Assembly (NCBI GenBank): GCA_963812945.1
Contig: CAWEXD010000010.1
Span: 62,001-126,000, forward strand
DNA from: DASRDR01 sp963812945 [NCBI: uncultured Candidatus Rokubacteria bacterium]
GTDB lineage: Bacteria; Methylomirabilota; Methylomirabilia; Rokubacteriales
Direction of reading: 5' to 3'
DNA length: 64,000 nucleotides
Both the position numbers and the translations under genes were made by a program. The notes under the pieces are model-generated. The model was not told the origin of the DNA. It did no database searches and saw only the letters and a list, made by a program, of their open reading frames with translations. Positions 5,992-60,165 of this stretch are shown here, piece by piece. Every line of letters begins with the position of its first letter. Position 1 is the stretch's first letter.

Positions 5992-6007
5992 TGCAATGGC
6001 GCTGCCA
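5992..6007 (-). promoter_or_regulatory. Sigma-54 promoter for HlyD/ABC/MgtA operon
   Basis: TGGCAGCGCCATTGCA on the minus strand. GG and GC are separated by exactly 10 bases as required for sigma-54. Predicted transcription start near 5982, unusually close to the ATG at 5977. Confidence 0.75.
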
Positions 6008-6093
6008 GCCGGTAACCCTGCGTCCCTGCAACGGAGATCGCCTCCCTCGCCATGGCTGCCAGGGGTCAGGACGACCTCACCCGGGGCGGGGCC

Positions 6094-6107
6094 GCCCCAT
6101 CCTGGGT
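6094..6107. promoter_or_regulatory. Putative NtrC-type enhancer palindrome
   Basis: GCCCCATCCTGGGT, an imperfect match to the shared palindrome GCCCCACCTGGGGC, centred about 93 bp upstream of the sigma-54 site at 6007. Inferred activator site. Confidence 0.5.
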
Positions 6108-6138
6108 CGATCGCCGGCAGGACGGGCATCCCGCTAGA

Positions 6139-6366
6139 CTAGGCGGGCTCGCGTCCCAGATCCTCCTCGACATCCTCCTGCGATCGCCGACACTGATCGC
6201 ACCGGCTTCGGAGCGACAGGCTCCCGTCCTCATCGTCGGGACCTCCGCTCTCGGCATGGAGCAGCCCGCCGCACACGCACGCCTCGGGATACTCCTGGAT
6301 GCACCCGGGGCATCGCGTGTTTCCGACGTGGTGGACGGCTTCCTCGTCGACCGGAACAAGCTGCAT
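6139..6366 (-). CDS. Small cysteine-rich zinc-ribbon-like protein
   Basis: 75 residues with the pattern CPGC then CVC, followed about 30 residues later by CDQC, suggesting one metal-binding ribbon; the C-terminus is acidic. The ATG at 6366 has a strong GGAGGAG ribosome site 6 bases upstream, which supports it being real despite its size. It follows the 307-residue protein by 39 bases on the same strand, so it is probably the last gene of the long operon that starts at 12635. No named family recognised; function unknown. Confidence 0.65.
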   Translation of the reverse strand: MQLVPVDEEAVHHVGNTRCPGCIQEYPEACVCGGLLHAESGGPDDEDGSLSLRSRCDQCRRSQEDVEEDLGREPA

Positions 6367-6405
6367 GGTTACTCCTCCGTGGTCATGGCTCGCGGCGTCG
6401 CGCCG

Positions 6406-7329: not shown

Positions 7330-7335
7330 GCGGCC

Positions 7336-9342
7336 CTAGGCCGGCCCGGGACTGAACGGATGGAGCGCCGGCAGCGTCTGCGTTTCCGCCGCCAAGATGG
7401 GCCGGACCGCCTGCGTCTCATCGAACCAGATGTATTCATCGAACTGGTAGGGCAGCGAGGCGTGGAAGTAGTGGCTCTGGAGCTCGGTCTCCGGCCGGTA
7501 GACGACGCCCACGGCGCGCTCGAGCCGCGATGGCGCCAGCTCGGCGCGCACTTCCTCGCGTCTGGGATCGCGGAGATGTAGCCGGAAGGCCCTGACGCCC
7601 GACTCGTGGCACAGCCGCTCGTAGCTCTCGGGGTGCGCCGGGCGGAGGGTCATCACCCGCATCGGCCGGTCCCAGTCGTGCGCGGCGGCAACCGTTCCAT
7701 GGTCAGTGCCGAAGCCGACGAGGGAAGCCGCGTCGCCGAATCGCTGCCGGCACAGCTGTCCCAGGTTCAGCTCGCCGCGCGCGCTCATCTCGGTCGCCCG
7801 CGCGTCGCCCAGGTGCGAGTTGTGCGCCCACACGACGGCCTTCGACGCCGGCCCGTGGAACGCGAGCAGCCGCTCGAGCGTCTCGAACATGTGCCGGTCA
7901 CGCTGGTTCCAGGACTCGCTGGCTCCGTAGTACATCGCGCGGTAGTAGCGCTCGGCGTCGGCGACGAGGCGGGCATTCTGCACCGCGTCGAGGAACCGCT
8001 CGCCGTCCCGCTCGGCATACTCGAGCTCCCGGCTCAGCATGTCGCGCAACATCGCCACCGCCTCCTTCTCGCAGACGCGATAGCGTCCACTGATGGCGGC
8101 GCGCCCATAGGCCTGTGGATCGGCCTGCCAGGGCGTCAGGCAGGAGTACCGTTCGCGCGCGAGGCGCGCCGCCGGCGGGTCCACCCGCTCCAGGTACTCG
8201 AGGACCGAGCGAATCGACGTGAACAGGCTGTAGAGGTCGAGACCGTAGAAGCTGGCCTGCCGCGCGGGCTCGCGGACCTCGGCGTTGAAGACCCGCAGCC
8301 ACTCGACGAACCCCCAGGTCTCGTGGTTGCGCCACATCCACGTCGGGAAGCGCGCGAAGGCCGACTCCTCGGGACGGTGTCCGTCCGGAAGGGCCTGGAC
8401 GTAGCGATTGACGCGGCGCGCGTCGGGCCAGTCGGCCTCGACCGCGACGATCCCGAACCCGCCCGTGCGGATGAGCTCCTGGGTGATTCGGCCGCGCATC
8501 CGGTAGAACTCGGACGTGCCGTGCGTCGCCTCACCGATCAGCACCACCCGCGAGCGGGCCAGACGCTCGAGCAACGCGCCGAGATCCTGACCCTCGATCG
8601 ACTCGAGCGGCTCGGCGACCTCCCGCACGAGGCGGACCAGGGTGTCCGGACGGCTCAAGGGCTGCGCGGGACGCCCGTTCCACTCGCTGGGCTCCGCCAT
8701 CCAACCCTGAGCCCCGATCAGCGGCACGAACCGCACGTCACCGAGCTCCTCCTCGCGGAAACGGCCATCGGCCCCCCGCGTCACCCGCACCAGGCGCTGG
8801 ACGGTGCGGCCTTCGCCGACAGGGATCACGAGGCGACCGCCCGGCGCCAGCTGGTCCAGGAGCGCCTCGGGCACCTTCGGGCCTCCTGCTGCGACGATGA
8901 TCGCGTCGTACGGCGCGTGTTCGGGCCAGCCGAGCGTGCCGTCCCCGTGGAGCACCGACACGTTCCCGAATCCGAGACGGGCGAGGCGCTCGGCCGCGAC
9001 GCGTGTCAGCTCCTCGTGGCGCTCGACGGTGTAGACCTCACGCGCGATCCGGCCGAGAATCGCCGCCGCGTAGCCCGACCCCGTCCCCACCTCCAGCACA
9101 CGATCACCGGGTCGGAGGGCGGCCGCCGCCGTCATCAGCGCAACGATGTAGGGCTGCGAGATGGTTTGCCCGCGCTCGATCGGCAGGGGCGTGTCCGCGT
9201 GCGCGAACTCCTCGAGCTCGGGGGGGAGAAACGCCTCGCGCGGGACACTCCGCATCGCCGCGAGCACGGCCGGATCCCGGACACCCCGGGCCGCGATGTG
9301 CGTGCGGACCATCTTCTCTCGCGCATCTGTCAGATCAAGCAT
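7336..9342 (-). CDS. Fusion: protein-L-isoaspartate O-methyltransferase + erythromycin-esterase-like domain
   Basis: 668 residues. Residues 1-215 are a PCMT: the SAM motif VLEVGTGSGYAAAILG, the preceding ISQPYIVALMTAAA and the conserved DAIIVAAGGP. This enzyme repairs isoaspartyl damage in aged proteins. Residues 250-645 are an erythromycin-esterase-like domain with GEATHGTSEFYRMR, AVEADWP, FYGLDLYSL and VWAHNSHLGDAR, the histidines and acids of the Ere fold. In mycobacteria the esterase-like domain is fused to a phosphoribosyltransferase (Rv2030c) inside the DosR regulon, so this location fits a dormancy role. Real substrate of the esterase half is unknown; antibiotic resistance should not be assumed. 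ATG at 9342. Confidence 0.92.
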   Translation of the reverse strand: MLDLTDAREKMVRTHIAARGVRDPAVLAAMRSVPREAFLPPELEEFAHADTPLPIERGQTISQPYIVALMTAAAALRPGDRVLEVGTGSGYAAAILGRIAREVYTVERHEELTRVAAERLARLGFGNVSVLHGDGTLGWPEHAPYDAIIVAAGGPKVPEALLDQLAPGGRLVIPVGEGRTVQRLVRVTRGADGRFREEELGDVRFVPLIGAQGWMAEPSEWNGRPAQPLSRPDTLVRLVREVAEPLESIEGQDLGALLERLARSRVVLIGEATHGTSEFYRMRGRITQELIRTGGFGIVAVEADWPDARRVNRYVQALPDGHRPEESAFARFPTWMWRNHETWGFVEWLRVFNAEVREPARQASFYGLDLYSLFTSIRSVLEYLERVDPPAARLARERYSCLTPWQADPQAYGRAAISGRYRVCEKEAVAMLRDMLSRELEYAERDGERFLDAVQNARLVADAERYYRAMYYGASESWNQRDRHMFETLERLLAFHGPASKAVVWAHNSHLGDARATEMSARGELNLGQLCRQRFGDAASLVGFGTDHGTVAAAHDWDRPMRVMTLRPAHPESYERLCHESGVRAFRLHLRDPRREEVRAELAPSRLERAVGVVYRPETELQSHYFHASLPYQFDEYIWFDETQAVRPILAAETQTLPALHPFSPGPA

Positions 9343-9457
9343 CTCGACACCCCTTACTCGGGCGAGCCCCCTCGGCCAGAACTCAAACGCCGGTCACGCG
9401 AACCCTCGGGGACGGAGGAGCACCGCATTCTTGATCGCGCGGCATGGGGACCGAATC

Positions 9458-12619: not shown

Positions 12620-12635
12620 TGCAACCCGCCCGCCA
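12620..12635 (-). promoter_or_regulatory. Sigma-54 promoter for BON-aldolase-pfkB operon
   Basis: TGGCGGGCGGGTTGCA on the minus strand with correct 10-base GG/GC spacing; two mismatches in the -24 tail. Predicted leader about 42 bases. I see no clear enhancer palindrome upstream. Confidence 0.55.
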
Positions 12636-14891: not shown

Positions 14892-14907
14892 AGCAATGAC
14901 GTTGCCA
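14892..14907 (-). promoter_or_regulatory. Sigma-54 promoter, leftward, for nucleotidyltransferase-protease
   Basis: TGGCAACGTCATTGCT on the minus strand, correct spacing. Divergent from the site at 15069; both flank the palindrome at 15002. Confidence 0.75.
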
Positions 14908-15001
14908 GTCCGCTCCTCGCCATGGACACTGCATTCCGGCGCATGGCGGGGCCGACGCGCCGACCGGTCGTGCGAGCGCGCGGGGCCGGTGCGGAGAGTC
15001 C

Positions 15002-15015
15002 GCCCCATGCGGGGC
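15002..15015. promoter_or_regulatory. Putative NtrC-type enhancer palindrome shared by divergent promoters
   Basis: GCCCCATGCGGGGC has perfect 5-bp arms, followed at +18 by TGGGACACC, an arrangement repeated at 24724 and, less well, at 30937. Centred about 60 bp from the rightward and 101 bp from the leftward sigma-54 site. Confidence 0.6.
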
Positions 15016-15068: not shown

Positions 15069-15084
15069 TGGCACCTGGGTTGCA
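15069..15084 (+). promoter_or_regulatory. Sigma-54 promoter for Usp-ATPase operon
   Basis: TGGCACCTGGGTTGCA, near-perfect consensus with correct spacing. Predicted leader about 54 bases to the ATG at 15149. Confidence 0.85.
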
Positions 15085-19863: not shown

Positions 19864-19972
19864 CATGCGCAAGGCAACGGGGTGGGCCGTGTTGGGGAGT
19901 ACTCGCCTCACCACCTGTGGCGCGGCAGGACATGAAGCGGCCGTCGCATGCTCCATTTCCCCAGGTCTTCTC

Positions 19973-19988
19973 TGGCACCTCGGTTGCA
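19973..19988 (+). promoter_or_regulatory. Sigma-54 promoter for ribosome hibernation factor
   Basis: TGGCACCTCGGTTGCA, correct spacing. Predicted leader about 37 bases to the ATG at 20035. No convincing enhancer palindrome in the 110 bases upstream. Confidence 0.82.
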
Positions 19989-20945: not shown

Positions 20946-20961
20946 TGCAATAGGACGGCCA
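20946..20961 (-). promoter_or_regulatory. Sigma-54 promoter for YXWGXW lipoprotein
   Basis: TGGCCGTCCTATTGCA on the minus strand, spacing correct; -24 tail differs from consensus. Predicted leader about 43 bases. No enhancer palindrome noticed nearby. Confidence 0.6.
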
Positions 20962-24566: not shown

Positions 24567-24582
24567 TGCGAGTCTCGTGCCC
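24567..24582 (-). promoter_or_regulatory. Probable sigma-54 promoter, leftward
   Basis: GGGCACGAGACTCGCA on the minus strand. Good -24 element and spacing; the -12 element is TCGC instead of TTGC. Divergent from the site at 24814 across one palindrome. Confidence 0.45.
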
Positions 24583-24813: not shown

Positions 24814-24829
24814 CGGCACATGCATTGCA
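24814..24829 (+). promoter_or_regulatory. Sigma-54 promoter for groEL operon
   Basis: CGGCACATGCATTGCA, correct spacing, first base differs from consensus. Predicted transcript start near 24839, just before the AAGGAGG of the leader ORF. Confidence 0.75.
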
Positions 24830-30918: not shown

Positions 30919-30936
30919 GCGGCATGGGACCGGCCC

Positions 30937-30950
30937 GCCCCACCTGAGGC
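30937..30950. promoter_or_regulatory. Putative NtrC-type enhancer palindrome
   Basis: GCCCCACCTGAGGC, with AGGACACC at the same offset as the ACACC element at 15002 and 24724. Centred about 73 bp upstream of the sigma-54 site at 31017. Confidence 0.55.
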
Positions 30951-31016: not shown

Positions 31017-31032
31017 TGGCACTCCCGATGCA
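31017..31032 (+). promoter_or_regulatory. Sigma-54 promoter for membrane peptide/end-repair operon
   Basis: TGGCACTCCCGATGCA; spacing correct, -12 element ATGC instead of TTGC. Predicted leader about 50 bases to the ATG at 31092. Confidence 0.6.
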
Positions 31033-33346: not shown

Positions 33347-33384
33347 GCCCGGCTGGGGTGCGCGCGCCTCGACGGGGCAGCGAC

Positions 33385-33398
33385 GCCCCATGCCGGCT
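33385..33398. promoter_or_regulatory. Weak enhancer-like palindrome
   Basis: GCCCCATGCCGGCT: left half matches the shared palindrome, right half is poor. An overlapping inverted repeat GGGGCAGCGACGCCCC spans 33374-33389. Centred about 50-60 bp upstream of the sigma-54 site at 33442. Confidence 0.35.
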
Positions 33399-33441
33399 GC
33401 GGGCTGGCGTGCCGATTGCTCTGCGAGCATCGTGTTTCCAG

Positions 33442-33457
33442 TGGCATCGCGGTTGCA
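33442..33457 (+). promoter_or_regulatory. Sigma-54 promoter for Usp-ppsA-gap-trx operon
   Basis: TGGCATCGCGGTTGCA, correct spacing. Predicted leader about 20 bases to the ATG at 33487. Confidence 0.82.
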
Positions 33458-37991: not shown

Positions 37992-38011
37992 CCAGCCGGT
38001 GAGACTCCGCC

Positions 38012-38025
38012 GCCCCACCTGGGGC
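38012..38025. promoter_or_regulatory. Putative NtrC-type enhancer palindrome (best match)
   Basis: GCCCCACCTGGGGC, perfect 5-bp arms around ACCT. Centre about 83 bp upstream of the sigma-54-like element at 38102. Confidence 0.6.
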
Positions 38026-38101: not shown

Positions 38102-38117
38102 TTGCACGGCACTTGCA
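38102..38117 (+). promoter_or_regulatory. Probable sigma-54 promoter for CBS-glgP
   Basis: TTGCACGGCACTTGCA. -24 tail (GCACG) and -12 (TTGC) match with correct spacing, but the first G of the GG pair is T. Leader about 41 bases. Confidence 0.55.
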
Positions 38118-40399: not shown

Positions 40400-40780
40400 C
40401 TACCAAACCGAGCCGTGGTCTCCCAGGACACGCTCGACGGCCTCGCGGAACGCGGCGTTCGCCAGGGGCTTCGTCAGGAACGCGCTGACCCCGGTCTCTC
40501 GCGCAGCCACCCGCGCCTGGTCGGAGTCGTGGGCGCTGATGAGGAATACCGAGATCGGCGGGACACGGGCGCGAGCATGGCGCGCGACGGCCAGCCCGTC
40601 GACTCCCCCGGGCAGATGGAGATCAGTCACGACGAGGTCGGGAGCCTCCCGGTCGATGAGTGTGATCGCGGCGGGTCCGGAACTGGCGGTCAGGCAGGCG
40701 TGCCCGAGCGGCCGGAGAACCCGCTCCCAGCTTGCGAGCAGGTCCGGCTCGTCGTCCACCAGCAAGATCTTGCGCGCCAC
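40400..40780 (-). CDS. Single-domain response regulator (CheY-like receiver)
   Basis: About 126 residues, receiver only. KILLVDDEPDLLASWERVL carries the acidic pocket; the phospho-acceptor Asp is in LVVTDLHLPGG, and the Lys is in AFLTKPLANA. No DNA-binding domain. It is a paralogue of the receiver at 48300, sharing LVDDEPDL, SGPAAITLIDREAPDLVV and TKP-ANA-F. I start it at GTG 40780 because the sigma-54 element at 40818-40803 would overlap the longer frame. It sits divergent from the histidine kinase at 40974 and is a likely phosphorelay partner. Confidence 0.85.
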   Translation of the reverse strand: MARKILLVDDEPDLLASWERVLRPLGHACLTASSGPAAITLIDREAPDLVVTDLHLPGGVDGLAVARHARARVPPISVFLISAHDSDQARVAARETGVSAFLTKPLANAAFREAVERVLGDHGSVW

Positions 40781-40802: not shown

Positions 40803-40818
40803 AGCAATAACGATGCCC
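40803..40818 (-). promoter_or_regulatory. Sigma-54 promoter for receiver protein
   Basis: GGGCATCGTTATTGCT on the minus strand, spacing correct, first base off consensus. Leader about 13 bases to GTG 40780. Confidence 0.65.
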
Positions 40819-40873: not shown

Positions 40874-40887
40874 GTCCCGGGTGGGGC
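40874..40887. promoter_or_regulatory. Putative NtrC-type enhancer palindrome
   Basis: GTCCCGGGTGGGGC, centred about 62 bp upstream of the leftward sigma-54 site at 40818. It also lies upstream of the rightward kinase gene, for which I found no sigma-54 element. Confidence 0.5.
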
Positions 40888-40973
40888 ATCGCCACCCCGG
40901 AAGAGACACCGGCACCCCAGCTTGTGCGCCGTCTGCCTTGACGGCCCGATGGGCCACGGCCGAGAATGCCGGC

Positions 40974-42692
40974 ATGCCGGCGAATGGGCGACCGCCAGGG
41001 CAGAACCGCAGGACGGCGAGCTCTGGAGGACGCGGGGTCACCCGGAAACCTGCACCCCCACCTCAGGGGTCGCCCGACACGGCCCTCAGCCGCCGGGCGG
41101 CCCTGGCCGACGCCGTTCTCGAGACGTCGTCCCTGGGAGTCGTGATGGTGGACGGCGCGGGACGGATCGTGCGGGCCAACGCTCGCCTCGCTCAGATGTT
41201 CGGCTACGCGCAGCAGGACCTCGACGGTGAGACGATCGAAGCGCTCTTGCCCGAGCGGCTCCGGGTTGCTCACGCGCAACACCGCCGTGGCTTCTTCGGC
41301 GACCCGCGGGTGCGACCCATGGGATACGGTCTCGAGCTCACCGCCCGCCGCAAGGACGGGACCGAGTTTCCCGTGGAGATCAGCCTGAGCTTTGTCGAGA
41401 GCGACCAGGGCCTCCTGGCCCTCGGCTTCGTGACCGACATCACGCCCCGCCGGAACGCGGAGCAGCGCCTTCAAGCGGAGTTCCTGGTGACGCGCGTGTT
41501 CGCGGACCCGGACGATTCGGGAAATCTACTTCCGCGCCTGCTTCAGGCCCTGTGCGAGAGCCTCGCCTGGGATCTCGGGGAGTTCTGGCGCGTGGACGGC
41601 GACGTCCTCCGGCACGAGGCCGGGTGGCATCGGCCGGGACTCGACACGCGGGAGTTCGACGAAGTCAGTCGCAAAACGGTGTTGTCATGCGGGATGGGGC
41701 TGGCCGGCCGCGTCTGGGAGACGGGCCAGGCGTGCTGGGTCCAGTCGGGCGAGCACCTCGGGGGGGGCCGCGCGGCTGCGGCGGCCCGGATCGGGCTGAA
41801 GCCGGCTTGCGCCTTCCCGATCCGCGGCCAGGACTCGTTCATCGGCGCCATCGTGATGCTGAATCGAGCCCCGCGCGAGCCCGATGACACCCTGCTCGCG
41901 ATGCTCACCGATATCGGCAACCGGATCGGTCAGCACCTCGATCACCGTCGTGTCCAGACCCAGCTCCGCCAGCAGCGCGAAGTCTTGTTCCAGAGCGAGA
42001 AGCTGTCGGCCCTCGGGCGCCTCGTGGCCGGGGTCGCCCACGAAATGAACAATCCCCTGGGTATCATCTCGTCGCGGATCGAGCTGATGCTCGGCGAGGC
42101 CGAAGGTCAGACGATTCCCGCCCAGTTTCTCGACGACCTCCGGGTGGTCCACCGCAACGTCATGCGCGTGGCCGGCGTGGCCCAGGCGCTGCGATCCTTT
42201 GCGCGCCAGTCCACCGGGGAGCGGCAGCCGATCGACCTGAACACGGTGGTCGGAGAGACACTGCTGCTCGTCGGCAAGTCCATGAGCACGGAAGACGTCC
42301 GCATCACGACGGCACTCGATCCGGCGCTTCCCTCGATTCTGGGCGACGCCAACGCGCTCCAGCAGGTCTTGCTGAATCTTCTGACGAACGCGCGAGAAGC
42401 CTTGACGGGCGGCGGGGAGATCTCGATCCAGACAGGACGCGACGCCGAGCACCCGGGTCACCTGCACCTGATCGTGAAAGATACCGGACCCGGAATTCCC
42501 CCGGCGCATCTCCCCCACCTGTTCGAGCCGTTCTACACGACCAAGCCATCGGGAACGGGTCTGGGCCTCGCGGTGAGCTACGGGATCGTTCAGAGCCACC
42601 TGGGGACGATCGACGTCCATTCCCTCCCGAGCCAGGGCGCGACGTTCATCCTCAGGTTCCCGGTGCTGGAGAGTCTGTCGGGCCCTGCGTAG
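40974..42692 (+). CDS. PAS-GAF sensor histidine kinase
   Basis: About 572 residues from ATG 40974; the start is uncertain (in-frame ATG at 40881 too). Order: disordered basic N-terminus, PAS (45-150: SSLGVVMVDGAGRIVRANARLAQMFGY, then EFPVEISLSF), GAF (165-310), HisKA with the phospho-His near residue 356 in VAGVAHEMNNPLG, and HATPase with LLNLLTNAREAL, KDTGPGIPP and GTGLGLAVSYGIVQSH. No membrane segment, so a cytoplasmic sensor. DosS/DosT-type kinases also use GAF domains, but I see no clear haem-binding signature here. Its neighbour is a receiver-only protein; the real target may be the NtrC-like regulator. Confidence 0.9.
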   Translation: MPANGRPPGQNRRTASSGGRGVTRKPAPPPQGSPDTALSRRAALADAVLETSSLGVVMVDGAGRIVRANARLAQMFGYAQQDLDGETIEALLPERLRVAHAQHRRGFFGDPRVRPMGYGLELTARRKDGTEFPVEISLSFVESDQGLLALGFVTDITPRRNAEQRLQAEFLVTRVFADPDDSGNLLPRLLQALCESLAWDLGEFWRVDGDVLRHEAGWHRPGLDTREFDEVSRKTVLSCGMGLAGRVWETGQACWVQSGEHLGGGRAAAAARIGLKPACAFPIRGQDSFIGAIVMLNRAPREPDDTLLAMLTDIGNRIGQHLDHRRVQTQLRQQREVLFQSEKLSALGRLVAGVAHEMNNPLGIISSRIELMLGEAEGQTIPAQFLDDLRVVHRNVMRVAGVAQALRSFARQSTGERQPIDLNTVVGETLLLVGKSMSTEDVRITTALDPALPSILGDANALQQVLLNLLTNAREALTGGGEISIQTGRDAEHPGHLHLIVKDTGPGIPPAHLPHLFEPFYTTKPSGTGLGLAVSYGIVQSHLGTIDVHSLPSQGATFILRFPVLESLSGPA

Positions 42693-43221
42693 CGCTGCCC
42701 GTCGATTCGACGGCAGGCCAGCGAGACTCGTGCGGCCCCAGAAGCAAGGACACCACTCCCGAGTCGAGCTTCCGCTCCAGGATCGTCGCGACCCGCCCGA
42801 TGAGCTTGAGCATGCGCAGGTTGTCGGCGAGGACGTAGGCCCGGAAACGGCGAATGCCCCTCGCTTCCGCGTAGCCAACCAGCTCGCCGAGCAGTCGCGT
42901 TCCGAGGCCCCGTCCCTGCCACCGGTCCTCGATGACGACGGCGATCTCGGCCTCCTGGGCCCGCTCATCGTGGACGTAGCGCGCCACCCCGATCAGCTCG
43001 CCGCTGGGGTCGAGAGCGACGATCGCCATGCGCCGGTCGTAGTCCACGTTCGCCAGGATGTGCGTCCAGTCCGGCGGCAGCCGGCGCATCACCGTGAAGA
43101 ACCGCTGGTACGAGGTCTCCGGGCTGAGCCGCTCGTAGAGCGCCGTCAGGGCGGATTCGTCCTCGGGCCGGATGTGGCGCAGGGTGACCGGGGTGCCGTC
43201 CGTCAGGATCACCGGCCTCAT
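42652..43221 (-). CDS. GNAT-family N-acetyltransferase
   Basis: 189 residues. TLRHIRPEDESALTALYERLSPETSYQRFF at the N-terminus, acetyl-CoA motif EDRWQGRGLGTRLLGEL, and YVLADNLRMLKL. The N-terminal wording is that of the acetyltransferase domain found at the end of Pat-type protein acetyltransferases that act on acetyl-CoA synthetases. Here it stands alone, and an ADP-forming acyl-CoA synthetase lies elsewhere in the island. It converges with and overlaps the kinase gene by 41 bases. ATG 43221 chosen because longer frames run into the hsp20 control region. Confidence 0.85.
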   Translation of the reverse strand: MRPVILTDGTPVTLRHIRPEDESALTALYERLSPETSYQRFFTVMRRLPPDWTHILANVDYDRRMAIVALDPSGELIGVARYVHDERAQEAEIAVVIEDRWQGRGLGTRLLGELVGYAEARGIRRFRAYVLADNLRMLKLIGRVATILERKLDSGVVSLLLGPHESRWPAVESTGSATQGPTDSPAPGT

Positions 43222-43252
43222 GGGGCCAGCGTGCCCCACCGGACCCGCCGAT

Positions 43253-43311: not shown

Positions 43312-43327
43312 TGGCATTGCGGTTGCT
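43312..43327 (+). promoter_or_regulatory. Sigma-54 promoter for hsp20
   Basis: TGGCATTGCGGTTGCT, correct spacing. Predicted leader about 39 bases. Confidence 0.82.
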
Positions 43328-45267: not shown

Positions 45268-46649
45268 TCAGGCCTTGATCCCGTGCTTGGCCAGCAGGCG
45301 GTGCAGCGTCTTCCGGTCGACGCCGGCCGTCTTCGCGGCCTGCGAGATGTTCCCCCCGTGCCGTCGGAGCAGATCGGTCAGGTACCTCTGGGCGAAGGCC
45401 TGCAGCCAGGCTTCGCGAGCCTGAGCGAGGGGCAGGTCCTTGCCCGGGACCGCGGCGGCCGGACGACCGCGGCCGCGGATGTGGTCGGAAAGATCTCGGA
45501 CCTGGATCATCGGTCCATCCGTCAGCGCGCAGGCACGCTCGATCACGTTCTGGAGCTCGCGGACGTTACCGGGCCAGGCGTAGGCTTCGAGGCATGCGAG
45601 TGCGTCCGGCTCGATCCCCGCAAGCAGCGGCTCACGGTTCCGCCCGTAGCGTCGCAGGAAGTGGTGCGCGAGGAGCGCCACGTCCCCCGACCGCTCTCGG
45701 AGCGGCGGTAGCGTGATCGTGATCACGTTGACGCGGTAGAAGAGGTCGTCCCGGAATTCCCCCTTCCGGACCAGCTCCGCGGCATCCCGGTTGGTCGCCG
45801 ACACGAGGCGGACGTCCACGTCGTGAAGCGGGTCGCGCCGACGCGACGGATCTGCCGTTCCTGTAGGGCCCGGAGGAGCTTGGACTGGAGCGCCTGGGGC
45901 AGCTCCCCGATCTCGTCGAGGAAGAGCGTGCCCCGGTCCGCGACCTCGATCATCCCCGGCTTGGTCCGGTCCGCGCCGGTGAACGCGCCGCGCTCGTGCC
46001 CGAACAGCTCCGACTCGAGCAGCGCATCGGGCAGCGCCGCGCAGTCCACGGGAACGAACACCTCGGCGGCCCGGGCGCTCTGCGCGTGAATCGCCCGGGC
46101 GATCAGCTCTTTCCCGGTCCCGGACTCCCCCTGGATCAGGATGTTGGCCTCCGACCGGGCGCCCTTCCGGACGAGGTCGAACACGGCCTCCATGGCCGCG
46201 CTCTTGCCGACCACGTGGTCGAAGCCGGCGCGCGGCGCAAGCGGCTCCCGAAGCCGGCGGTTCTCCTCGATCAGGCGGCGCCGTTCGGCCGCGCGCTCGA
46301 CGGCCAGACGGAGCACGTCGTTGGACGGCAGCGGCTTCAGCAGGTAGTCGAATGCCCCCGCTCGCATGGCTTCCACCGCGGACTCGACGCTCCCGTGTCC
46401 GGTGATCATGATCACGACGACGTCGGGATCCAGCTCGCGGGCGCGGGTCAGAACCTGCATCCCATCGACCCGAGGCATCTTGAGATCGGTGAGGACGATC
46501 TCGGGACGCTCGCTCTCGAGCAGCGCCAGCGCGCGTTCACCGTCGGTCGCCGTCACGCAGGCATAGTCGTCCCGGCCGAGGAGGCGGCTCCAGTTGGCGA
46601 CGACGTCGGGCTCGTCGTCGACGATCAGGACGCGCGGCTTCGCGCTCAC
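45268..46649 (-). CDS. NtrC-family sigma-54 activator, frameshifted near 45826
   Basis: About 460 residues in two frames. Receiver domain ([18 protein letters not shown], acceptor Asp in [17 protein letters not shown]), AAA+ domain with Walker A GESGTGKE, the sigma-54 contact loop [14 protein letters not shown], Walker [12 protein letters not shown], then VSATNRD, and a Fis-type helix-turn-helix at the end ([24 protein letters not shown]). The first frame reads VGATRF then degenerates; the second resumes [14 protein letters not shown]. One C is missing in TTC(C)ACGAC at about 45826. I start it at GTG 46649. This is the only sigma-54 activator in the window, so it is the natural candidate regulator of the 18 promoters. 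The shift may be a sequencing error or recent inactivation. Confidence 0.88.
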
Positions 46650-48299: not shown

Positions 48300-48689
48300 T
48301 CAGCCTTCAGCCACCTCGTCGGTCGACTTGGGAGGCAAGGCTCGCCAGATGGCGTCGAGGAACACGGCATTCGCGAACGGCTTGGCGAGGTAGATGCTGA
48401 CCCCGCTTTCTCGGGCGGCGGACCGCGCCTGCGGGGAATCGTAGGCGGTGATCAGGATCACGGGGATGGGCGGAGCATGGCCACGGGCGTGGCGTGCCAC
48501 GACCAGGCCATCGACCCCGGGGAGCCGCAGATCGGCCACCACCAGGTCCGGCCTCTCTCGGTCGATCAGCGCGATCGCGTCCGGCCCCGTGTGGGCCCGA
48601 AGGGATTCGTGCCCTGCGCGCTGGAGAAGCCGCTCACAGTTCGCGACGAGATCCGGCTCGTCATCGACGACCAGGATGGTCCGAGTCAC
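48300..48689 (-). CDS. Single-domain response regulator (CheY-like receiver)
   Basis: 129 residues, receiver only: ILVVDDEPDLVANCERLLQ, acceptor Asp in LVVADLRLPG, Thr in ILITAYDS and Lys in IYLAKPFAN. No output domain, so a relay or competitor for the NtrC-like receiver in the same operon. The start is GTG 48689, with CGAGGA 7 bases before it and a sigma-54 element at 48728. A paralogue of the receiver at 40400. Confidence 0.9.
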   Translation of the reverse strand: MTRTILVVDDEPDLVANCERLLQRAGHESLRAHTGPDAIALIDRERPDLVVADLRLPGVDGLVVARHARGHAPPIPVILITAYDSPQARSAARESGVSIYLAKPFANAVFLDAIWRALPPKSTDEVAEG

Positions 48690-48712: not shown

Positions 48713-48728
48713 AGCAATCGTGGTGCCA
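48713..48728 (-). promoter_or_regulatory. Sigma-54 promoter for receiver-APH/AAA-NtrC operon
   Basis: TGGCACCACGATTGCT on the minus strand, near-consensus with correct spacing. Leader about 14 bases. It puts the regulator under sigma-54 control itself. Confidence 0.82.
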
Positions 48729-48818
48729 GGCCAGGTGAGGCCGCCGGACCAGGCTGAGGCTCGAGATGCACGGAGGCCAACGGTGGGCTCGGGCGGAGGG
48801 GTGCCCTGAGGCGCGACC

Positions 48819-48832
48819 GTCCCATCCGGGCG
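48819..48832. promoter_or_regulatory. Putative NtrC-type enhancer shared by divergent promoters
   Basis: GTCCCATCCGGGCG, with GTCCCACC exactly 20 bp on (48839). About 73 bp from the rightward site at 48899 and 97 bp from the leftward one at 48728. The 281-base gap 48690-48970 holds only these control elements. Confidence 0.5.
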
Positions 48833-48898: not shown

Positions 48899-48914
48899 TG
48901 GCACCGTCATTGCT
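48899..48914 (+). promoter_or_regulatory. Sigma-54 promoter for CBS-ACT operon
   Basis: TGGCACCGTCATTGCT, correct spacing. Predicted leader about 47 bases to ATG 48971. Confidence 0.85.
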
Positions 48915-51875: not shown

Positions 51876-53212
51876 CCACGCCGCCGCGGCCGGTCCCGGA
51901 GCGGGGACCGGCCCCGGCGCTCCGGCGGACGCTCCGGCTCTGGCAGGTCTCCCTGGCCGGGATCGGCGTCATCCTCGGGGCCGGGGTCTACGCGCTGATC
52001 GGTCCGGCCGCGGGGCTCGCGGGCAACGCGCTCTGGCTCGCCTTTCTCCTGGCCGGCATCGCCGCCGGCCTGACCGCCTATTCGTACGCCCGCCTCGGCA
52101 CGATGCGGCCGAAGGACTCGCCGGAGTTCCAGTACACGGCGCTGGCCTTCGGGCCGCGGATTGGCTTCCTGGCGGGGTGGCTGATGCTGGCCGCCGACCT
52201 GCTCGCGGTGGCCGCCGTCGCCCTCGGGTTCGGCGGCTACCTCGCTCACCTCGCGGGAACGCCCGCCGTGGCGAACGCGCTCGCGCTCCTGGCGGTGACA
52301 CTCGTCGTCCTCCTGGTCGGCATCGGTGAGTCCGTCGGGCTGGCCGTCCTGCTCACCGGGGTCGAGGCGGCCGGCTTGCTGTTCGTGATTGCGATCGGGC
52401 TCCCCGATTGGGGCCGCGTCAGCTACCTGGAGGCGCCCCACGGCGTCGCCGGCCTGTCCGGGGCCGCCGCGCTGATCTTCTTCGCGTACCTGGGATTCGA
52501 CGAGATCGGGAACTTCGCCGAGGAGATGCATCAGCCGGAGAGGAACCTTCCGCGCGCCCTGTTCTTCTCGATGGCCGGCGCCACCCTGATCTACCTGCTC
52601 GTGGCCCTGTCGGTGACGGCCGCGGTCAGCTGGCAGGACCTCAGCGCGTCGACGGCCCCCCTGGCGCTGGTGGCCCGACAGGCGCTGGGGCCAACGGCGG
52701 AGACCGCCATCAGCGTGATCGCCCTGGCCGCGACGGCGAACACGGTGCTGCTGCTCCTGGTGGCGGCCGCGCGCTCGGTGTACGGGATGGCGGCGGGCGG
52801 CGTGTTGCCCCGGCGGCTCGGCGCCGTCGGGGGCCGGGGCATTCCCCTCCCCGCGACCCTTCTCGTGACCGGCATCACGGGGTCCCTGGTCCTCCTGGGT
52901 GACCTCGCGCAGGTGGCGGCCATGACCGACGCGGCGGTGCTCCTGAGCTTCATGCTCGTCAACCTCAGCCTGCCGTGGCTGGCGCGCCGTGGAGCGACGG
53001 GCCCCGGACTCGTCCGCCGGGGACTCGACGTCGGCCTGCCCGCGCTGGCCCTGCTCATGTGCGGGTGGCTGCTCGTGCACACCGGGTGGCTGAGCCTCGC
53101 CGCGGCCGCCGGCCTGGCGGTCCTCGGCCTGGCGGTGGGGCGCCGGCGCCCGGAGCGGGGCACGGACGCCGCACCGCCGGTCCCGGATCGAGATGCCCGG
53201 CCGATCGCCTGA
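51866..53212 (+). CDS. APC-family amino acid permease
   Basis: 448 residues with about 12 membrane helices. [26 protein letters not shown] is the TM1 GxGxGA substrate/sodium motif of the APC family; [28 protein letters not shown] is the conserved TM6-loop region. No regulatory tail. GTG 51866 starts inside the end of the cyclase gene, so coupled. Substrate unknown (amino acid or polyamine). Confidence 0.9.
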
Positions 53213-53249: not shown

Positions 53250-53265
53250 GGGCACCGGGGTTGCA
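53250..53265 (+). promoter_or_regulatory. Sigma-54 promoter for dps operon
   Basis: GGGCACCGGGGTTGCA, correct spacing; first base off consensus. Leader about 80 bases to ATG 53355. No clear palindrome found upstream, where the permease gene ends. Confidence 0.72.
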
Positions 53266-56260: not shown

Positions 56261-57541
56261 TCAGGGGCCCGGACGGAGGCCGAGGAGGGCCGCGAGGCTC
56301 GCGACGGCCAAGCCGGCGAGGCCGAAGCCAGCGATCCGTCGGAAGGTCCCGTGCCCGACCACCAGGACCAGGACCAGCTTCAAGACCGTGTTCGCGAGCA
56401 CGCCCACCGCGAGCGCCTGCGCGGCCGTCGCAGTGTCCACACCGTCGGCCGGGAACCGCGTCATCGCGTAGGTGAGCGCGTCCACGTCCGTGAGCCCGAG
56501 CCCGGCGGCGGACAGGAGCACGCCAGGAGAGCCGAACCAGCGACGGACCCATTCCACGACGTACAGCACCGCCTGGAAGGCCAGCGCCATCTGGATGGCC
56601 GCGCCGAGGCGGAGCGGGTTTCCCGGCAAGGACGCCCCGGTGGCGCCGGTCTCCCACCGTCTGATGGCGACCGAGAGCCCGAGCCCGGCGGCGAGCGGCA
56701 GGAGCAGGTAGGGCCAGACCCGCCACCCCACGGCGGGATACAGGATGGTCGCCAGGACCCCGACGCGGACCAGCAAGATCGTGCAGGCCGCGACCACCCC
56801 TGCTCCCAGCGCGCGTCCCGGGGCCGCCTCGCGCCGGCTCTCGCGCGAGAAGCTCAGGGTCACCATGGTCGAGGAGACCACACCCCCGAGAAGCCCGGCC
56901 AGCGCATACCCACGGTCGGGGCCGACGAGGCGCAAGGCGAGGAAGCCCCCGAAGCTCAAGCCCGAGAAGAGCAGGACCAGCGCCCAGAGCTCGCGCGGCC
57001 GGAGCCCTGGGACGGGACCGAACGGCCCCTCGGGCAAGAGAGGCAACACCACCAGGGCGAGCACGGCAAAGCGCGCCGCCGCCTCGAGCGTCTCCGACTG
57101 GAGTCGATGCACCAGCGCGTGGATCCGCCCTTTCTCCACCAACACGAGGGCGGTCAGTGCGGACAGCGCGCTCGCGAGGGCCAGGCGTCCTGTCCCGGCG
57201 AGCGCACCCGCTGCCAGGACGACAAGGGCGGACACCTCTGTCGTGCCGTCGACGTCACCGCCACCGCGCGCCGTGACCATGTAGGCACCGACCACCAGGG
57301 CCGCGGACGCCGCCACGATGACGAGGCCGACCGCCGGGCCGGCGAGCTCGGACAGCGTGGCGCCGAGGCCGCCGAGGAGTCCGAGCAGCAGGAACGTGCG
57401 CACGCCCGCGAAACGGGCCGGCCGGCCGCGCGCGCGGGCCGACCACTCGCGCTCGATCCCGACGGCGAGTCCGCCGAGCGCAGCCACGCCAAGCCGCGTC
57501 GCGACGTCCAACGCCTCGGACCAGGTCACGCCAACCCCCAC
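56261..57541 (-). CDS. MgtC/DUF4010 family membrane protein
   Basis: About 426 residues, roughly 12 membrane helices. The N-terminal part is MgtC-like (VAALGGLAVGIEREWSARARGRPARFAGVRTFLLLGLLGGLGA, with the GxERE/RT-F pattern), followed by a DUF4010 domain (LLGGVVSSTMVTLSFSRES, GLTDVDALTYAMTR). The start is unclear: GTG 57541 keeps the enhancer palindrome at 57578 outside the gene, while GTG 57604 is the longest frame. It is the only gene in this part read leftwards and has no sigma-54 element that I could find. Confidence 0.85.
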   Translation of the reverse strand: MGVGVTWSEALDVATRLGVAALGGLAVGIEREWSARARGRPARFAGVRTFLLLGLLGGLGATLSELAGPAVGLVIVAASAALVVGAYMVTARGGGDVDGTTEVSALVVLAAGALAGTGRLALASALSALTALVLVEKGRIHALVHRLQSETLEAAARFAVLALVVLPLLPEGPFGPVPGLRPRELWALVLLFSGLSFGGFLALRLVGPDRGYALAGLLGGVVSSTMVTLSFSRESRREAAPGRALGAGVVAACTILLVRVGVLATILYPAVGWRVWPYLLLPLAAGLGLSVAIRRWETGATGASLPGNPLRLGAAIQMALAFQAVLYVVEWVRRWFGSPGVLLSAAGLGLTDVDALTYAMTRFPADGVDTATAAQALAVGVLANTVLKLVLVLVVGHGTFRRIAGFGLAGLAVASLAALLGLRPGP

Positions 57542-57577
57542 GGTCTCTTCAAGCGAGATCTCCGCTGGGGCCGGAGC

Positions 57578-57591
57578 GCCCCACCTGGGAC
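57578..57591. promoter_or_regulatory. Putative NtrC-type enhancer palindrome
   Basis: GCCCCACCTGGGAC with a second GCCCCAC exactly 20 bp on (57598). Centred about 104 bp upstream of the oxidase sigma-54 site. Confidence 0.58.
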
Positions 57592-57688
57592 GGTGACGCC
57601 CCACTCAAGAGCGGCGCACCCGCCCACCGGCGGCCCGGATCGCTTGCCATCCCGCGAGGATGTTACCTCGTGGCGGGAGCGTGCCATC

Positions 57689-57704
57689 TGGCACCCGGGT
57701 TGCT
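57689..57704 (+). promoter_or_regulatory. Sigma-54 promoter for ba3-type oxidase operon
   Basis: TGGCACCCGGGTTGCT, correct spacing, near-consensus. Predicted leader about 32 bases to GTG 57746. Confidence 0.85.
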
Positions 57705-57745
57705 CTCGACCCTCCGGAGCCCGCCCGCGCGAAAGGAGCCGCCAC

Positions 57746-57853
57746 GTGAACGAGAACGACCATCCGAAGGGAGCCTTGCTCTTCATGCTCGTCTACCTCG
57801 CCCTGCTCGCCTTCATGTGGACCAACCTGTACTTGAAGCTCTGGACGAGGTGA
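57746..57853 (+). CDS. ba3-type cytochrome c oxidase subunit IIa (35-residue single helix)
   Basis: GTG start with AAAGGAGC upstream; the product is a polar VNENDHPKG head and one helix (ALLFMLVYLALLAFMWTNLYL) with a basic end. Position directly before subunits II and I and length match the 34-residue subunit IIa (CbaD) of Thermus ba3 oxidase, which fills the place of the missing first helix of subunit II. Stop overlaps a GTG alternative start of subunit II. Confidence 0.8.
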   Translation: MNENDHPKGALLFMLVYLALLAFMWTNLYLKLWTR

Positions 57854-57861
57854 AGAGCGCG

Positions 57862-58350
57862 ATGAGGCAGGGCACGACCGTCTACCTCTACGAGCTGGCC
57901 TGGATCCTGCCGAGCATCGCGATCCCGGTGGGGATGCTGGTCGCCCTCGTCGTCACCGCCTTCGGCGTCGGGGTTCACCTGCCGAGCGACGCCGGGCGCG
58001 TCGACGTGACCAAGCTCGCCGAGACGCCGCCGTTCGACCAGCCCGGCGTGGTCCAGACCGGCCCCGACCGCTACGAGGTCCGGATGATCGCCGGCATCTG
58101 GAGCTTCACGCCGAACGAGATCCGGGTGCCGGCGGGCTCGACGGTGACGTTCGTCGCGACCAGCCGCGACGTCGTCCATGGCCTTCACGTGGACCGCCAC
58201 AACGTCAACGTGATGCTGCTACCGGGCCAGATCGCGCGCGTGACGGCCCGCTTCGCCCGACCGGGGGAGTACCCGTTCGTCTGTCACGAGTACTGCGGGA
58301 TCGCCCACCACACCATGTGGGGCAAGGTGATCGTGGAGGCCCGGCCATGA
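57862..58350 (+). CDS. Cytochrome c oxidase subunit II, ba3 type
   Basis: 162 residues, short as in B-family oxidases. One membrane helix (IAIPVGMLVALVVTAFGVGV), then a CuA domain with the ligand His in DVVHGLHVD and the cluster CHEYCGIAHHTMWG supplying Cys, Cys, His and Met. It accepts electrons from cytochrome c outside the membrane. The single helix (most subunit II have two) fits the separate IIa peptide. Coupled to subunit I by an ATGA overlap; GTG 57850 is an alternative start. Confidence 0.94.
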   Translation: MRQGTTVYLYELAWILPSIAIPVGMLVALVVTAFGVGVHLPSDAGRVDVTKLAETPPFDQPGVVQTGPDRYEVRMIAGIWSFTPNEIRVPAGSTVTFVATSRDVVHGLHVDRHNVNVMLLPGQIARVTARFARPGEYPFVCHEYCGIAHHTMWGKVIVEARP

Positions 58351-60008
58351 CCCCGGTCACGTCGTCCGAGTCGGCGCTCGACCTCTCGGCGGAGCAGCGG
58401 GTTGCCGGGGTCAACCTGGTGGTGGCGCTCGTCGCCCTCTTCGGCGGCGTCACCGTGGGCCTCTTCCAGGCGCTGGAGCATGCCGGGCTGAATCTCTATC
58501 CGGCCCTCGTGCCCGTGATCCGCTCCTACTACCACGGGCTGACGCTGCACGGCGTCCTCAACGTGCTCGTCTTCACCACGTTCTTCATCTGCGGGTTCGT
58601 GCCGCTCCTGGTCGCGCGGGCCCTCGAGCGTCCGCTCTGGAGCCGGCCGCTCGCCCGGGGCACGTTCTGGCTCATGGTGGGTGGACTGGTCCTGGCCGCC
58701 ATCCCTCTGGTCGGGAACGCGGCAAGCGTGATGTTCACCTTCTACCCGCCCCTCAAGGCGCACTGGGCATTCTACGTAGGCCTGACTCTGGTCGTCGTCG
58801 GGACCTGGCTGGTCACCTTGAACCTGGCGCTCACCCTGCGCGCCTGGCGGGCGCAGAACCCCGGACGCCGCACACCGCTGGCAGCCTTCATGGGCATGGT
58901 GACCTTCGCGATGTGGTCGATCGCCTCGCTGGGGATCGCCGCCGAGATGCTGTTCCTCCTGATTCCGTGGTCCATCGGGCTCCTGAGCGGCACCGATGCC
59001 CTCCTGGCGCGCGCCCTCTTCTGGTTCAGCGGCCATCCCATCGTCTACTTCTGGCTCCTGCCGGCCTACATGTCCTGGTACACGCTCGTGCCTCGCCAGG
59101 CGGGAGGCAAGCTCTTCAGCGATCCCCTGGCGCGCACGTCGTTCATCCTGTTCCTGGTCCTCTCGACGCCGCTCGGCTTCCACCACCAGTACACGGATCC
59201 GGGCATCCATCACGGGTGGAAGCTGGTCCACGCCTTCCTGACATTCGCTGTCTTCTTCCCAAGCCTCCTCACGTTCTTCAACGTCGTCGCCTCCCTGGAG
59301 AGCGGGGCGCGCGCCCGGGGAGGCCGGGGCTGGGTGGCCTGGTTCGGCAAGCTACCCTGGGGCGATCCGTCGGTGGCCGCGCAGGTGCTGGCGATGCTCC
59401 TGTTCGTCTTCGGCGGGGTCGGCGGGCTCATCAACGCCTCCTACAACCTGAACCTGGTCGTTCACAACACGGCCTGGATCCCGGGCCACCTCCACCTCAC
59501 CGTGGGCACGGCGGTGACGCTCTCGTTCATGGGCATCACCTACTGGCTGATCCCCGTGCTCCGGGGCCGGGCGCTGTGGAGCCGCCGCCTGGCGCTCGTC
59601 CAGGCCTGGCTCTGGTTCGTCGCGATGTCGGTCTTCTCGCACGCCCAGCACAACCTCGGCCTCGCGGGCGCGCCCCGCCGCACCATGCTGAGCGCCGCCC
59701 CGTACGTCCGGCCGGAGTGGCAGTGGGACCTCATGTGGGTCGGGATCGGGGGAACCGGCCTGTTCCTGAGCTCCCTGCTCTACTTCCTCAACATCGTGGG
59801 CACGCTGGCATGGTCGCGAGGGCCCGCGCCCGCGATGCCGGGCTTCGCAGAGGCGCTCTCGGGGCCGGACCACGCCCCGCCCATCCTCGATCGATGGCGG
59901 CCCTGGCTCGCCCTGGCCGCCGGGCTGATCGTCATCGCCTACGGTCCATCCCTAGCCCGGCTGGTGGTGACGACCCCGCTCACGACTCCGGGCTTCCGGG
60001 TCTGGTAG
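58347..60008 (+). CDS. Cytochrome c oxidase subunit I, ba3 type (B-family haem-copper oxidase)
   Basis: 553 residues, about 13 helices. Haem and copper ligands are readable: YYHGLTLHGVLN (low-spin haem His), FWFSGHPIVYFWLLPAY (CuB His with the cross-linked Tyr), FHHQYTDPG (CuB His pair) and HNTAWIPGHLHLTVG (both haem histidines). The GHPIVYFWLLP string without the A-family D-channel Asn/Asp pattern points to the B (ba3) family, which usually works at low oxygen. It reduces O2 to water and pumps protons. Confidence 0.95.
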   Translation: MTPVTSSESALDLSAEQRVAGVNLVVALVALFGGVTVGLFQALEHAGLNLYPALVPVIRSYYHGLTLHGVLNVLVFTTFFICGFVPLLVARALERPLWSRPLARGTFWLMVGGLVLAAIPLVGNAASVMFTFYPPLKAHWAFYVGLTLVVVGTWLVTLNLALTLRAWRAQNPGRRTPLAAFMGMVTFAMWSIASLGIAAEMLFLLIPWSIGLLSGTDALLARALFWFSGHPIVYFWLLPAYMSWYTLVPRQAGGKLFSDPLARTSFILFLVLSTPLGFHHQYTDPGIHHGWKLVHAFLTFAVFFPSLLTFFNVVASLESGARARGGRGWVAWFGKLPWGDPSVAAQVLAMLLFVFGGVGGLINASYNLNLVVHNTAWIPGHLHLTVGTAVTLSFMGITYWLIPVLRGRALWSRRLALVQAWLWFVAMSVFSHAQHNLGLAGAPRRTMLSAAPYVRPEWQWDLMWVGIGGTGLFLSSLLYFLNIVGTLAWSRGPAPAMPGFAEALSGPDHAPPILDRWRPWLALAAGLIVIAYGPSLARLVVTTPLTTPGFRVW

Positions 60009-60059
60009 GCGATCTCGCGGGGTGACAGCCATGCGACGGTGGGGCCACCCTGCCCCCCT

Positions 60060-60075
60060 GTCCCGGGATTGGGAC
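60060..60075. promoter_or_regulatory. Putative NtrC-type enhancer palindrome (6-base centre)
   Basis: GTCCCGGGATTGGGAC: same arms as the others but with 6 instead of 4 central bases; GGTGGGGCC lies about 22 bp before. Centred about 82 bp upstream of the sigma-54 site at 60150. Confidence 0.45.
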
Positions 60076-60149
60076 AGCCGAGCCCGCGCCAGGTTGGAGC
60101 CGGTCAGGCCAACCCTCGGTGAGCACGCCGCGCGGCGGCCGAATGGGCC

Positions 60150-60165
60150 CGGCATCGAGGTTGCA
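60150..60165 (+). promoter_or_regulatory. Sigma-54 promoter for Met-rich protein, acyl-CoA synthetase and nrfHA
   Basis: CGGCATCGAGGTTGCA, correct spacing; first base off consensus. Predicted leader about 53 bases to ATG 60228. Confidence 0.72.

Follow-up and report, generated by a model that had tools for sequence, protein, structure and literature searches.

Introduction

Two described bacterial systems come closest to the locus considered here, a 64-kb window (the whole stretch analysed, positions 62,001 to 126,000 of contig CAWEXD010000010.1, assembly GCA_963812945.1, from an uncultured Candidatus Rokubacteria bacterium), in which many transcription units lie behind sigma-54 promoter elements of the -24/-12 type and a gene for a bacterial enhancer-binding protein (EBP, or bEBP) is found among them. 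In function, the closest relative that we found is the NmpRSTU system of Myxococcus xanthus. NmpR is described as NtrC-like, sigma-54-dependent and autoregulated, with paired palindromic enhancers; its regulon is scattered over several loci and has seven promoters and 23 genes, including genes for CBS and universal stress proteins (Usp), a P-type ATPase and a cbb3 oxidase; its target mxan_4236 is induced in hypoxia, and a double-receiver protein is the presumed phosphate sink (PMC11841059, PMC6211767). In architecture, the nearest counterpart is the nif island of Pseudomonas stutzeri A1501, in which NifA and sigma-54 control 11 operons (52 genes) over 49 kb (PMC2820453). The EBP regulons of Desulfovibrio vulgaris mostly have one to four operons, and the largest has twelve (PMC4641369); a word search of the main text of that paper did not find ‘universal stress’. 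A 2025 survey of sigma-54 regulons has GroEL/IbpA and Usp categories, and the passages found in it contain no such island (PMC12316311). We found no description of a sigma-54 dormancy island in the open-licence literature searched, where NmpRSTU was the one system that matched closely, the letters of the operator described below having been looked for in one paper only.

The window resembles NmpRSTU in having an NtrC-type EBP with sigma-54 promoters, palindromic enhancers, an EBP operon that would be autoregulated and, judged by position, CBS, Usp, P-type ATPase and terminal oxidase genes as targets. It differs in its operator (GCGCA-N5-TGCGC for NmpR, TGGGRC-N6-GYCCCA here) and in its layout (seven promoters at several loci for NmpR, about 15 in one 55-kb block here). 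No protoglobin kinase (NmpU), REC-HisKA kinase (NmpS) or double-receiver protein (NmpT) was recognised in the window; the one kinase recognised is of PAS-GAF-HisKA type and, besides the EBP, there are only single-domain receivers. A simple copy of the NmpR system is ruled out by the different operator; because operator and kinases both differ, we say of the island only that it would work like NmpR. With the P. stutzeri nif island the window shares many adjacent operons in about 50 kb, an EBP gene inside and upstream palindromes, whereas the nif island holds nitrogen fixation genes with TGT-N10-ACA sites, and the window holds stress, dormancy and micro-oxic genes with a two-component NtrC-type EBP (PMC2820453). 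The nif-type layout itself (adjacent operons with sigma-54 sites, one shared enhancer, and an EBP gene inside, at 45.3-46.6 kb) is present. As described for D. vulgaris, the putative EBP sites lie mostly less than 100 bp upstream of the sigma-54 promoters, and the EBP gene lies beside its likely targets, as is often the case there (PMC4641369).

A sequence-only reading of the same DNA had proposed a contiguous stress/dormancy regulon under sigma-54 and had called it unusual. The shared palindrome, the bEBP gene inside and the gene content support the proposal; the word ‘unusual’ has to be tempered, given the published 49-kb NifA/sigma-54 island and the published NtrC-like/sigma-54 hypoxia regulon with CBS and USP genes. 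We suggest, with a probability of roughly 0.8, that a single EBP runs a sigma-54 expression island which extends from about 6 to 61 kb of the window.

Promoter elements and their controls

The window (71% G+C) was scanned for TGGCAY-N5-TTGCW, with the GG...GC core and its 10-base gap required, and contains seven exact and nine one-mismatch matches; 40 third-order Markov simulations gave means of 0.025 exact (maximum 1) and 1.1 one-mismatch matches (maximum 5). The sequence-only reading had counted nine elements in which TGGCA and TTGC are both intact, with a chance expectation below one. Exactly nine matches to this strict core, TGGCA-N6-TTGC, were found, compared with a mean of 0.17 and a maximum of 3 in 100 simulations. 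When the same half-sites were placed at spacers of 2, 3, 4, 5, 7, 8, 9, 10 and 11, there were 0, 0, 0, 0, 1, 0, 0, 0 and 1 matches respectively. The intergenic share of the window is about 12%, and 15 of the 16 sites with the GG...GC core and no more than one mismatch are intergenic (p ~2e-13; 14 of 16 if the automatic start of the ferritin gene at 53.3 kb is used in place of a hand-changed one). Fourteen of these 16 sites had figured in the sequence-only reading; the two extra are 20347-, which is within a gene and probably a chance match, and 33405+.

All 18 elements which that reading had listed are present where, and on the strands on which, it had placed them, and as a set they are far beyond chance. 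Of the 18, 15 are supported, and three (12635-, 20961- and 24582-) are weak, with two mismatches each and no significant enhancer. For 15 of the 18 elements, 13-80 bp separate the end of the motif from the start codon of the gene as called; 24582- is 340 bp from the next called gene. If translation really begins at the in-frame ATGs at 38168 and 53328, the distances for 38102+ and 53250+ shrink to about 50 and 62 bp.

Exact matches occur at seven per 64 kb in the window, and the richest of 30 whole genomes of other bacteria has 43 in 4.4 Mb, or about 0.6 per 64 kb; the density in the window is thus some 11-fold or more above the average of any of the 30. One-mismatch sites discriminate less well, since some unrelated, AT-richer loci have a similar number per kb (up to 5 in about 22 kb, loci L031 and L064), and for this reason it is the exact-match and intergenic tests that carry weight. 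In an alignment of eight upstream regions, the invariant columns are confined to the two elements.

A palindrome common to most of the promoters

A recurrent G+C-rich palindrome was seen on reading the regions upstream of the promoters, and a de novo motif search of these regions returned TGGGGCGnnnnCGCCCCA, that is TGGGRC-N6-GYCCCA, an 18-bp palindrome. It is centred 60-101 bp upstream at 14 of the 15 supported promoters, two divergent pairs sharing one copy each. In a leave-one-out test, each region was scored with a matrix built without it, against 1039 overlapping 200-bp windows away from promoters (single p values being floored at 0.001): 12 of 15 independent upstream regions gave p < 0.05 each, with a Fisher combined p of ~3e-19, and no significant palindrome was found at 12635-, at 20961- or in the region common to 24582- and 24814+ (p = 0.09). 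The 12 best matches in the 64 kb to the position weight matrix, which was trained on those same upstream regions, all lie between genes, and each is followed at 61-115 bp by a claimed promoter. The motif search scored 89.8, and Markov sets (n=24) gave a mean of 46 and a maximum of 59. With a hand-written form of the palindrome, seven of nine matches with up to three mismatches, and five of five with up to two (0.33 expected), were upstream of promoters; this last result is not independent, because the pattern was made after looking at the same regions.

The offsets of the palindrome (-60, -70, -71, -72, -82, -83 (three times), -85, -93, -94 and -101) group in steps of about 11 bp (R = 0.75; chance 0.0085 after scanning periods), and at three promoters a second copy lies 19-20 bp from the first. 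Paired EBP dimers bound to one helix face would be expected to need such an arrangement. Enhancers of bEBPs lie some 70-150 bp upstream of sigma-54 promoters, and palindrome and -24/-12 element together are laid out as an activator's enhancer and its sigma-54 promoter would be.

The candidate activator, receivers and kinase

Domain scans against Pfam or NCBIfam covered 60 of the 63 called genes, three very short open reading frames (ORFs) being left out. One Sigma54_activat protein was found among the genes scanned, in an open frame at 45723-46649 (-) with a receiver in front. This open frame ends early; another frame, reaching to about 45270, encodes what remains of the AAA+ domain, followed by the lid and the Fis-type helix-turn-helix (HTH). 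The two pieces were scanned apart and both match domains well, GAFTGA being in the first. The whole (45268..46649, minus strand) has the domains of an NtrC-type EBP: Response_reg, Sigma54_activat AAA+ with GAFTGA, AAA lid and a Fis-type HTH (HTH_8). Its gene is the last of a likely operon, after genes for a receiver-only protein (48300-48689) and a C-terminal AAA_33 protein (46722-48293). The operon starts at the exact promoter 48728- (TGGCACCACGATTGCT, 48713..48728, minus strand), with the palindrome at -87; this palindrome (48807..48824) is common to 48728- and the divergent 48899+ (TGGCACCGTCATTGCT, 48899..48914, plus strand), which stands before CBS, cytochrome c and two Usp genes.

Two single-domain receiver proteins accompany the EBP. 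That at 48300..48689 (minus strand), from the first gene of the EBP operon, is a possible phosphate sink; that at 40400..40780 (minus strand), 65% identical to it, has its own promoter, 40818- (GGGCATCGTTATTGCT, 40803..40818, minus strand), and a palindrome at 40882..40899, centred at -72 (p = 0.04). Both are about 43% identical to the receiver domain of the EBP. Divergent from gene 40400-40780 is a gene for a PAS-GAF-HisKA-HATPase sensor kinase (41145..42692, plus strand), which is a candidate for the partner of the EBP; in the 300 bp before this gene we found no sigma-54 site. Among the 60 genes scanned, none encodes RpoN.

The other promoters and the genes behind them

At the left end of the block, 6007- (TGGCAGCGCCATTGCA, 5992..6007, minus strand), with a palindrome at 6082..6099 centred at -83, stands before a unit of MFP, ABC transporter and P-type ATPase genes (genes 4-1). 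The palindrome at 14990..15007 is common to divergent promoters, 14907- (TGGCAACGTCATTGCT, 14892..14907, minus strand), before nucleotidyltransferase and trypsin-like protease genes, and 15069+ (TGGCACCTGGGTTGCA, 15069..15084, plus strand), before the Usp gene 15149-15979. The gene for the S30AE ribosome hibernation protein (20035-20454) follows 19973+ (TGGCACCTCGGTTGCA, 19973..19988, plus strand), the palindrome at 19893..19910 being centred at -71. The Cpn60 and Usp genes lie behind 24814+ (CGGCACATGCATTGCA, 24814..24829, plus strand), which has one mismatch and whose enhancer is not significant (p = 0.09); the Cpn60 paralogue at 24910-26523 (+) was 71% identical to a plasmid-borne Sinorhizobium GroEL in a plasmid search. 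The palindrome TGGGACCGGCCCGCCCCA (30925..30942) is centred at -83 from 31017+ (TGGCACTCCCGATGCA, 31017..31032, plus strand), before a small ORF and genes for a LigD_N phosphoesterase and a helix-hairpin-helix protein. The latter pair (31252-32675, plus strand), in which the LigD_N 3'-phosphoesterase stands alone and is followed by the helix-hairpin-helix protein, possibly brings DNA repair genes into the regulon.

The unit of Usp, phosphoenolpyruvate (PEP) synthase, GAPDH and thioredoxin genes lies behind 33442+ (TGGCATCGCGGTTGCA, 33442..33457, plus strand), with a palindrome at 33373..33390, centred at -60, and a second copy at 33354. A further one-mismatch -24/-12 element, at 33405-33420 (+), is intergenic and 37 bp upstream of 33442+, and is possibly a tandem promoter. 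The element 38102+ (TTGCACGGCACTTGCA, 38102..38117, plus strand), before CBS and alpha-glucan phosphorylase genes, has one mismatch, which breaks the GG of -24; it was retained because of its enhancer palindrome (38000..38017, centred at -93). The Hsp20 gene (43376-43813) lies behind 43312+ (TGGCATTGCGGTTGCT, 43312..43327, plus strand), whose palindrome, TGGGGCCAGCGTGCCCCA (43221..43238), is centred at -82; a bacterial release-factor-like protein of baeRF family 10 (43969-45096, plus strand) adjoins Hsp20.

To the right of the EBP operon, 53250+ (GGGCACCGGGGTTGCA, 53250..53265, plus strand), with a palindrome at 53156..53173 centred at -85 (p = 0.006) and a second copy at 53136, precedes ferritin-like, Usp, two CBS and formate/nitrite transporter genes. 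A small ORF and the genes for cytochrome oxidase subunits II and I lie behind 57689+ (TGGCACCCGGGTTGCT, 57689..57704, plus strand), with tandem palindromes 20 bp apart (57566-57583 and 57586-57603), centred at about -115 and -94. The divergent MgtC/DUF4010 gene 56261-57541, for which no sigma-54 site was found, likewise has these tandem palindromes in front of it, at a distance of 25-62 bp, so that repression or double use is possible there. The last promoter of the block, 60150+ (CGGCATCGAGGTTGCA, 60150..60165, plus strand; palindrome at 60040..60057, centred at -101, p = 0.024), precedes a small ORF and the gene for an ADP-forming acyl/acetate-CoA ligase, for which the plasmid search gave 44% identity.

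All three weak elements are on the minus strand: 12635- (TGGCGGGCGGGTTGCA, 12620..12635), 20961- (TGGCCGTCCTATTGCA, 20946..20961) and 24582- (GGGCACGAGACTCGCA, 24567..24582). The last is probably not a promoter.

If a 100-bp gap is taken to separate transcription units, and two starts are changed by hand, the window has 30 units, of which 15 (38 of the 63 called genes) lie behind a supported promoter and two more behind a weak one only; a 60-bp rule gives 15 of 38 units. The claim of the sequence-only reading that its elements precede nearly every transcription unit was therefore too strong. Usp genes at 15149, 26528, 33487, 49979, 50452 and 53835 and CBS genes at 38168, 48971, 54368 and 54890 are in units with supported promoters. 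Also behind supported promoters are genes for Cpn60, Hsp20, the S30AE protein, PEP synthase, GAPDH, thioredoxin, alpha-glucan phosphorylase, the ADP-forming acetate/acyl-CoA ligase, cytochrome oxidase subunits II and I, cytochrome c, the ferritin-like protein, the formate/nitrite transporter, an ABC exporter and a P-type ATPase of magnesium type, which the window edge truncates. NrfH and a cut NrfA-type cytochrome are encoded at the right edge, with no recognised promoter. From such genes, the likely output is dormancy and survival under micro-oxic or anaerobic conditions.

Some further features of the window may be recorded. A moderate palindrome match at 62764-62781 is 115-132 bp upstream of nrfH (62896), with no recognisable -24/-12 element. 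The gene at 7336-9342 (-) encodes a protein-L-isoaspartate methyltransferase fused to an erythromycin-esterase-like domain (Pfam). An 896-aa ORF at 21002-23692 (+) combines AMP-binding (acyl-CoA synthetase) and acyltransferase domains, and no sigma-54 site was found upstream of it. A scan of the window against Rfam (gathering threshold) and a tRNA scan found nothing.

Searches in other genomes

A composite pattern of palindrome and -24/-12 element, which has two matches in the window, was searched for in other genomes, with the reversed pattern as control. With one or two matches per genome, it was matched in one of 55 genomes (reversed control 0), in four of 299 (including the one of the 55) compared with seven for the reversed control, and in eight of 117 Myxococcota-like genomes, where nine matches stood above the control's one; the phylum labels of these and the following genome sets are inferred. 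All nine matches in the 117 genomes were on the forward strand, and two, at loci L111 and L113, have an exact -24/-12 element in common, their palindrome being poor. Of the 13 distinct matches we inspected nine: all four from the 299-genome set and five of the nine from the 117-genome set. Two have an exact promoter with a poor palindrome score, four a one-mismatch promoter with a palindrome score above 10, and none of the nine joins an exact promoter to a good palindrome; six are inside open frames of at least 300 codons. Each of the four better matches is the sole match in its genome, and the inspected matches form no series, because eight of the nine genomes have a single match.

Proteins of the window were also used as guides. 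About 90 loci of other bacteria, 80 of them around PEP synthase, were scanned for such a promoter set, which was not found there; 20 met the listing rule, with at most five sites of up to one mismatch each. The best 80 PEP synthase loci listed are at most 60% identical and come from many phyla. For the C-terminal piece of the EBP, the closest matches among those listed were in 51 genomes and at most 53% identical, and none of the 15 fetched loci of the closest EBPs listed has a promoter-palindrome pair. A kinase-like match adjoins the EBP in all 15 fetched loci, and the kinases of three loci were scanned. In one of them (locus L144, 4702-10951, genome G033), the EBP relative lies amid two REC-HisKA kinases and a REC-REC-GAF kinase, which is NmpS-like, with no promoter-palindrome pair.

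The baeRF-family protein (43969-45096) was matched in 1 of 20 genomes, in 16 of 117 (Myxococcota-like), 23 of 148 (Desulfobacterota-like) and, marginally, 1 of 299 (Pseudomonadota-like), and in 21 of 100 (Nitrospirota-like), 17 of 99 (overlapping the set of 148) and 11 of 61 (overlapping the set of 100). Identities were at most 36%, except for a marginal match over 72 residues at 40%, and no close relative of the window was found by way of this protein in the sets searched.

Discussion

Our finding that about half of the transcription units share a promoter type, most of these promoters having the palindrome, and that a likely activator gene lies inside, suggests that the whole 55-kb block probably switches on together. 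In the scheme that we propose, falling oxygen or energy would be sensed by a kinase, for which the PAS-GAF kinase 41145-42692 is the candidate, and this kinase would phosphorylate the EBP. The EBP would then form an ATPase ring on the palindromes, loop to sigma-54 RNA polymerase at the -24/-12 elements and open the promoters. Acting through 48728-, it could amplify its own operon in a positive feedback; the receiver-only proteins 40400-40780 and 48300-48689, made from such promoters, could in turn drain phosphate and so damp or end the response in a negative feedback. The output would be a switch to micro-oxic or fermentative survival. For this fuller form (a single two-component EBP, with TGGGRC-N6-GYCCCA as operator, running a contiguous dormancy/hypoxia island of about 15 sigma-54 promoters, amplifying itself through its own operon and limiting itself through two co-induced receiver-only phosphate sinks) we would give even odds.

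Several observations weigh against this interpretation. The EBP reading frame is interrupted near 45820, which may be either an assembly error or a real, recent lesion; in the second case the island would be silent unless another EBP acts on it. A supported site is present at only half of the transcription units. The pairing of EBP and palindrome goes by co-location, and the hypoxia signal is taken from the gene content alone. The motif-finder score of 89.8 is approached by random coding stretches (n=24 sets; mean 76, maximum 84), and it is because this control comes so near that the leave-one-out and location tests carry the weight. Finally, no relative with the same regulon was found in the sets of 55, 299 and 117 genomes searched, so the case is one of strong within-window statistics with no phylogenetic footprint.

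Of the other explanations, the one that survives best is that the promoters do depend on sigma-54, with several EBPs, some encoded elsewhere, sharing the units, and that the palindrome belongs to another regulator, such as a repressor or an FNR-like activator, whose control simply overlaps with theirs. This might account for the three of 15 independent upstream regions with no significant palindrome, for the interrupted EBP frame, and for the palindromes that stand where no sigma-54 site is recognised, upstream of 56261-57541 (25-62 bp) and, as a moderate match, of nrfH (115-132 bp). However, the enhancer distance of the palindrome, its rough helical phasing and the second copies at three promoters are as expected for a bEBP, and the gene for the one bEBP recognised in the window closes a likely operon that itself has both palindrome and promoter; we therefore think that this explanation is unlikely, and retain control by one island-encoded EBP. 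Less probable again is that sigma-54 promoters are unusually frequent throughout the host genome, in which case the window is an ordinary sample of it and there is no island. Large numbers are on record, with 87 sigma-54 promoters in D. vulgaris and 108 in Geobacter sulfurreducens (PMC4641369), but at 15 supported promoters per 55 kb a 4-Mb genome would have about a thousand, the highest count of exact matches in our 30 genomes was 43, and the common palindrome argues for one regulon. That the -24/-12 matches arise from chance, from the composition of 71% G+C DNA or from a dispersed repeat is hardly credible: despite the density of one-mismatch sites in L031 and L064, chance and composition are ruled out by the Markov simulations (nine strict cores against 0.17), the spacer control (0 or 1 match), the intergenic bias (15 of 16) and the 11-fold excess of exact matches, and a repeat by the confinement of invariant columns to the two elements in the eight regions aligned.

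As a rule, regulons for hypoxia and dormancy are taken to be of DosR, FNR or FixK type. Regulons of the DosR, FNR and Anr type have a similar output (Usp, alpha-crystallin Hsp20, CBS, ferritin, nitrite and fermentation functions) and differ in that their activators are of LuxR or CRP/FNR type and work with sigma-70-family polymerase instead of sigma-54. Sigma-54 polymerase stays closed until an ATP-driven activator acts, and, because it is so held until the activator works, the genes of the island would have very low basal expression and a switch tied to the energy and phosphorylation state of the cell. If our interpretation is true, the island would be to sigma-54 what the DosR or Anr regulons are to their own type of polymerase, with an architecture in the style of the nif island put to use for survival genes. 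As a regulon in one block, with a clear operator and its activator in cis, it would be easily testable, and with the operator TGGGRC-N6-GYCCCA as a pattern, other uncultured bacteria could readily be searched for the same regulon.

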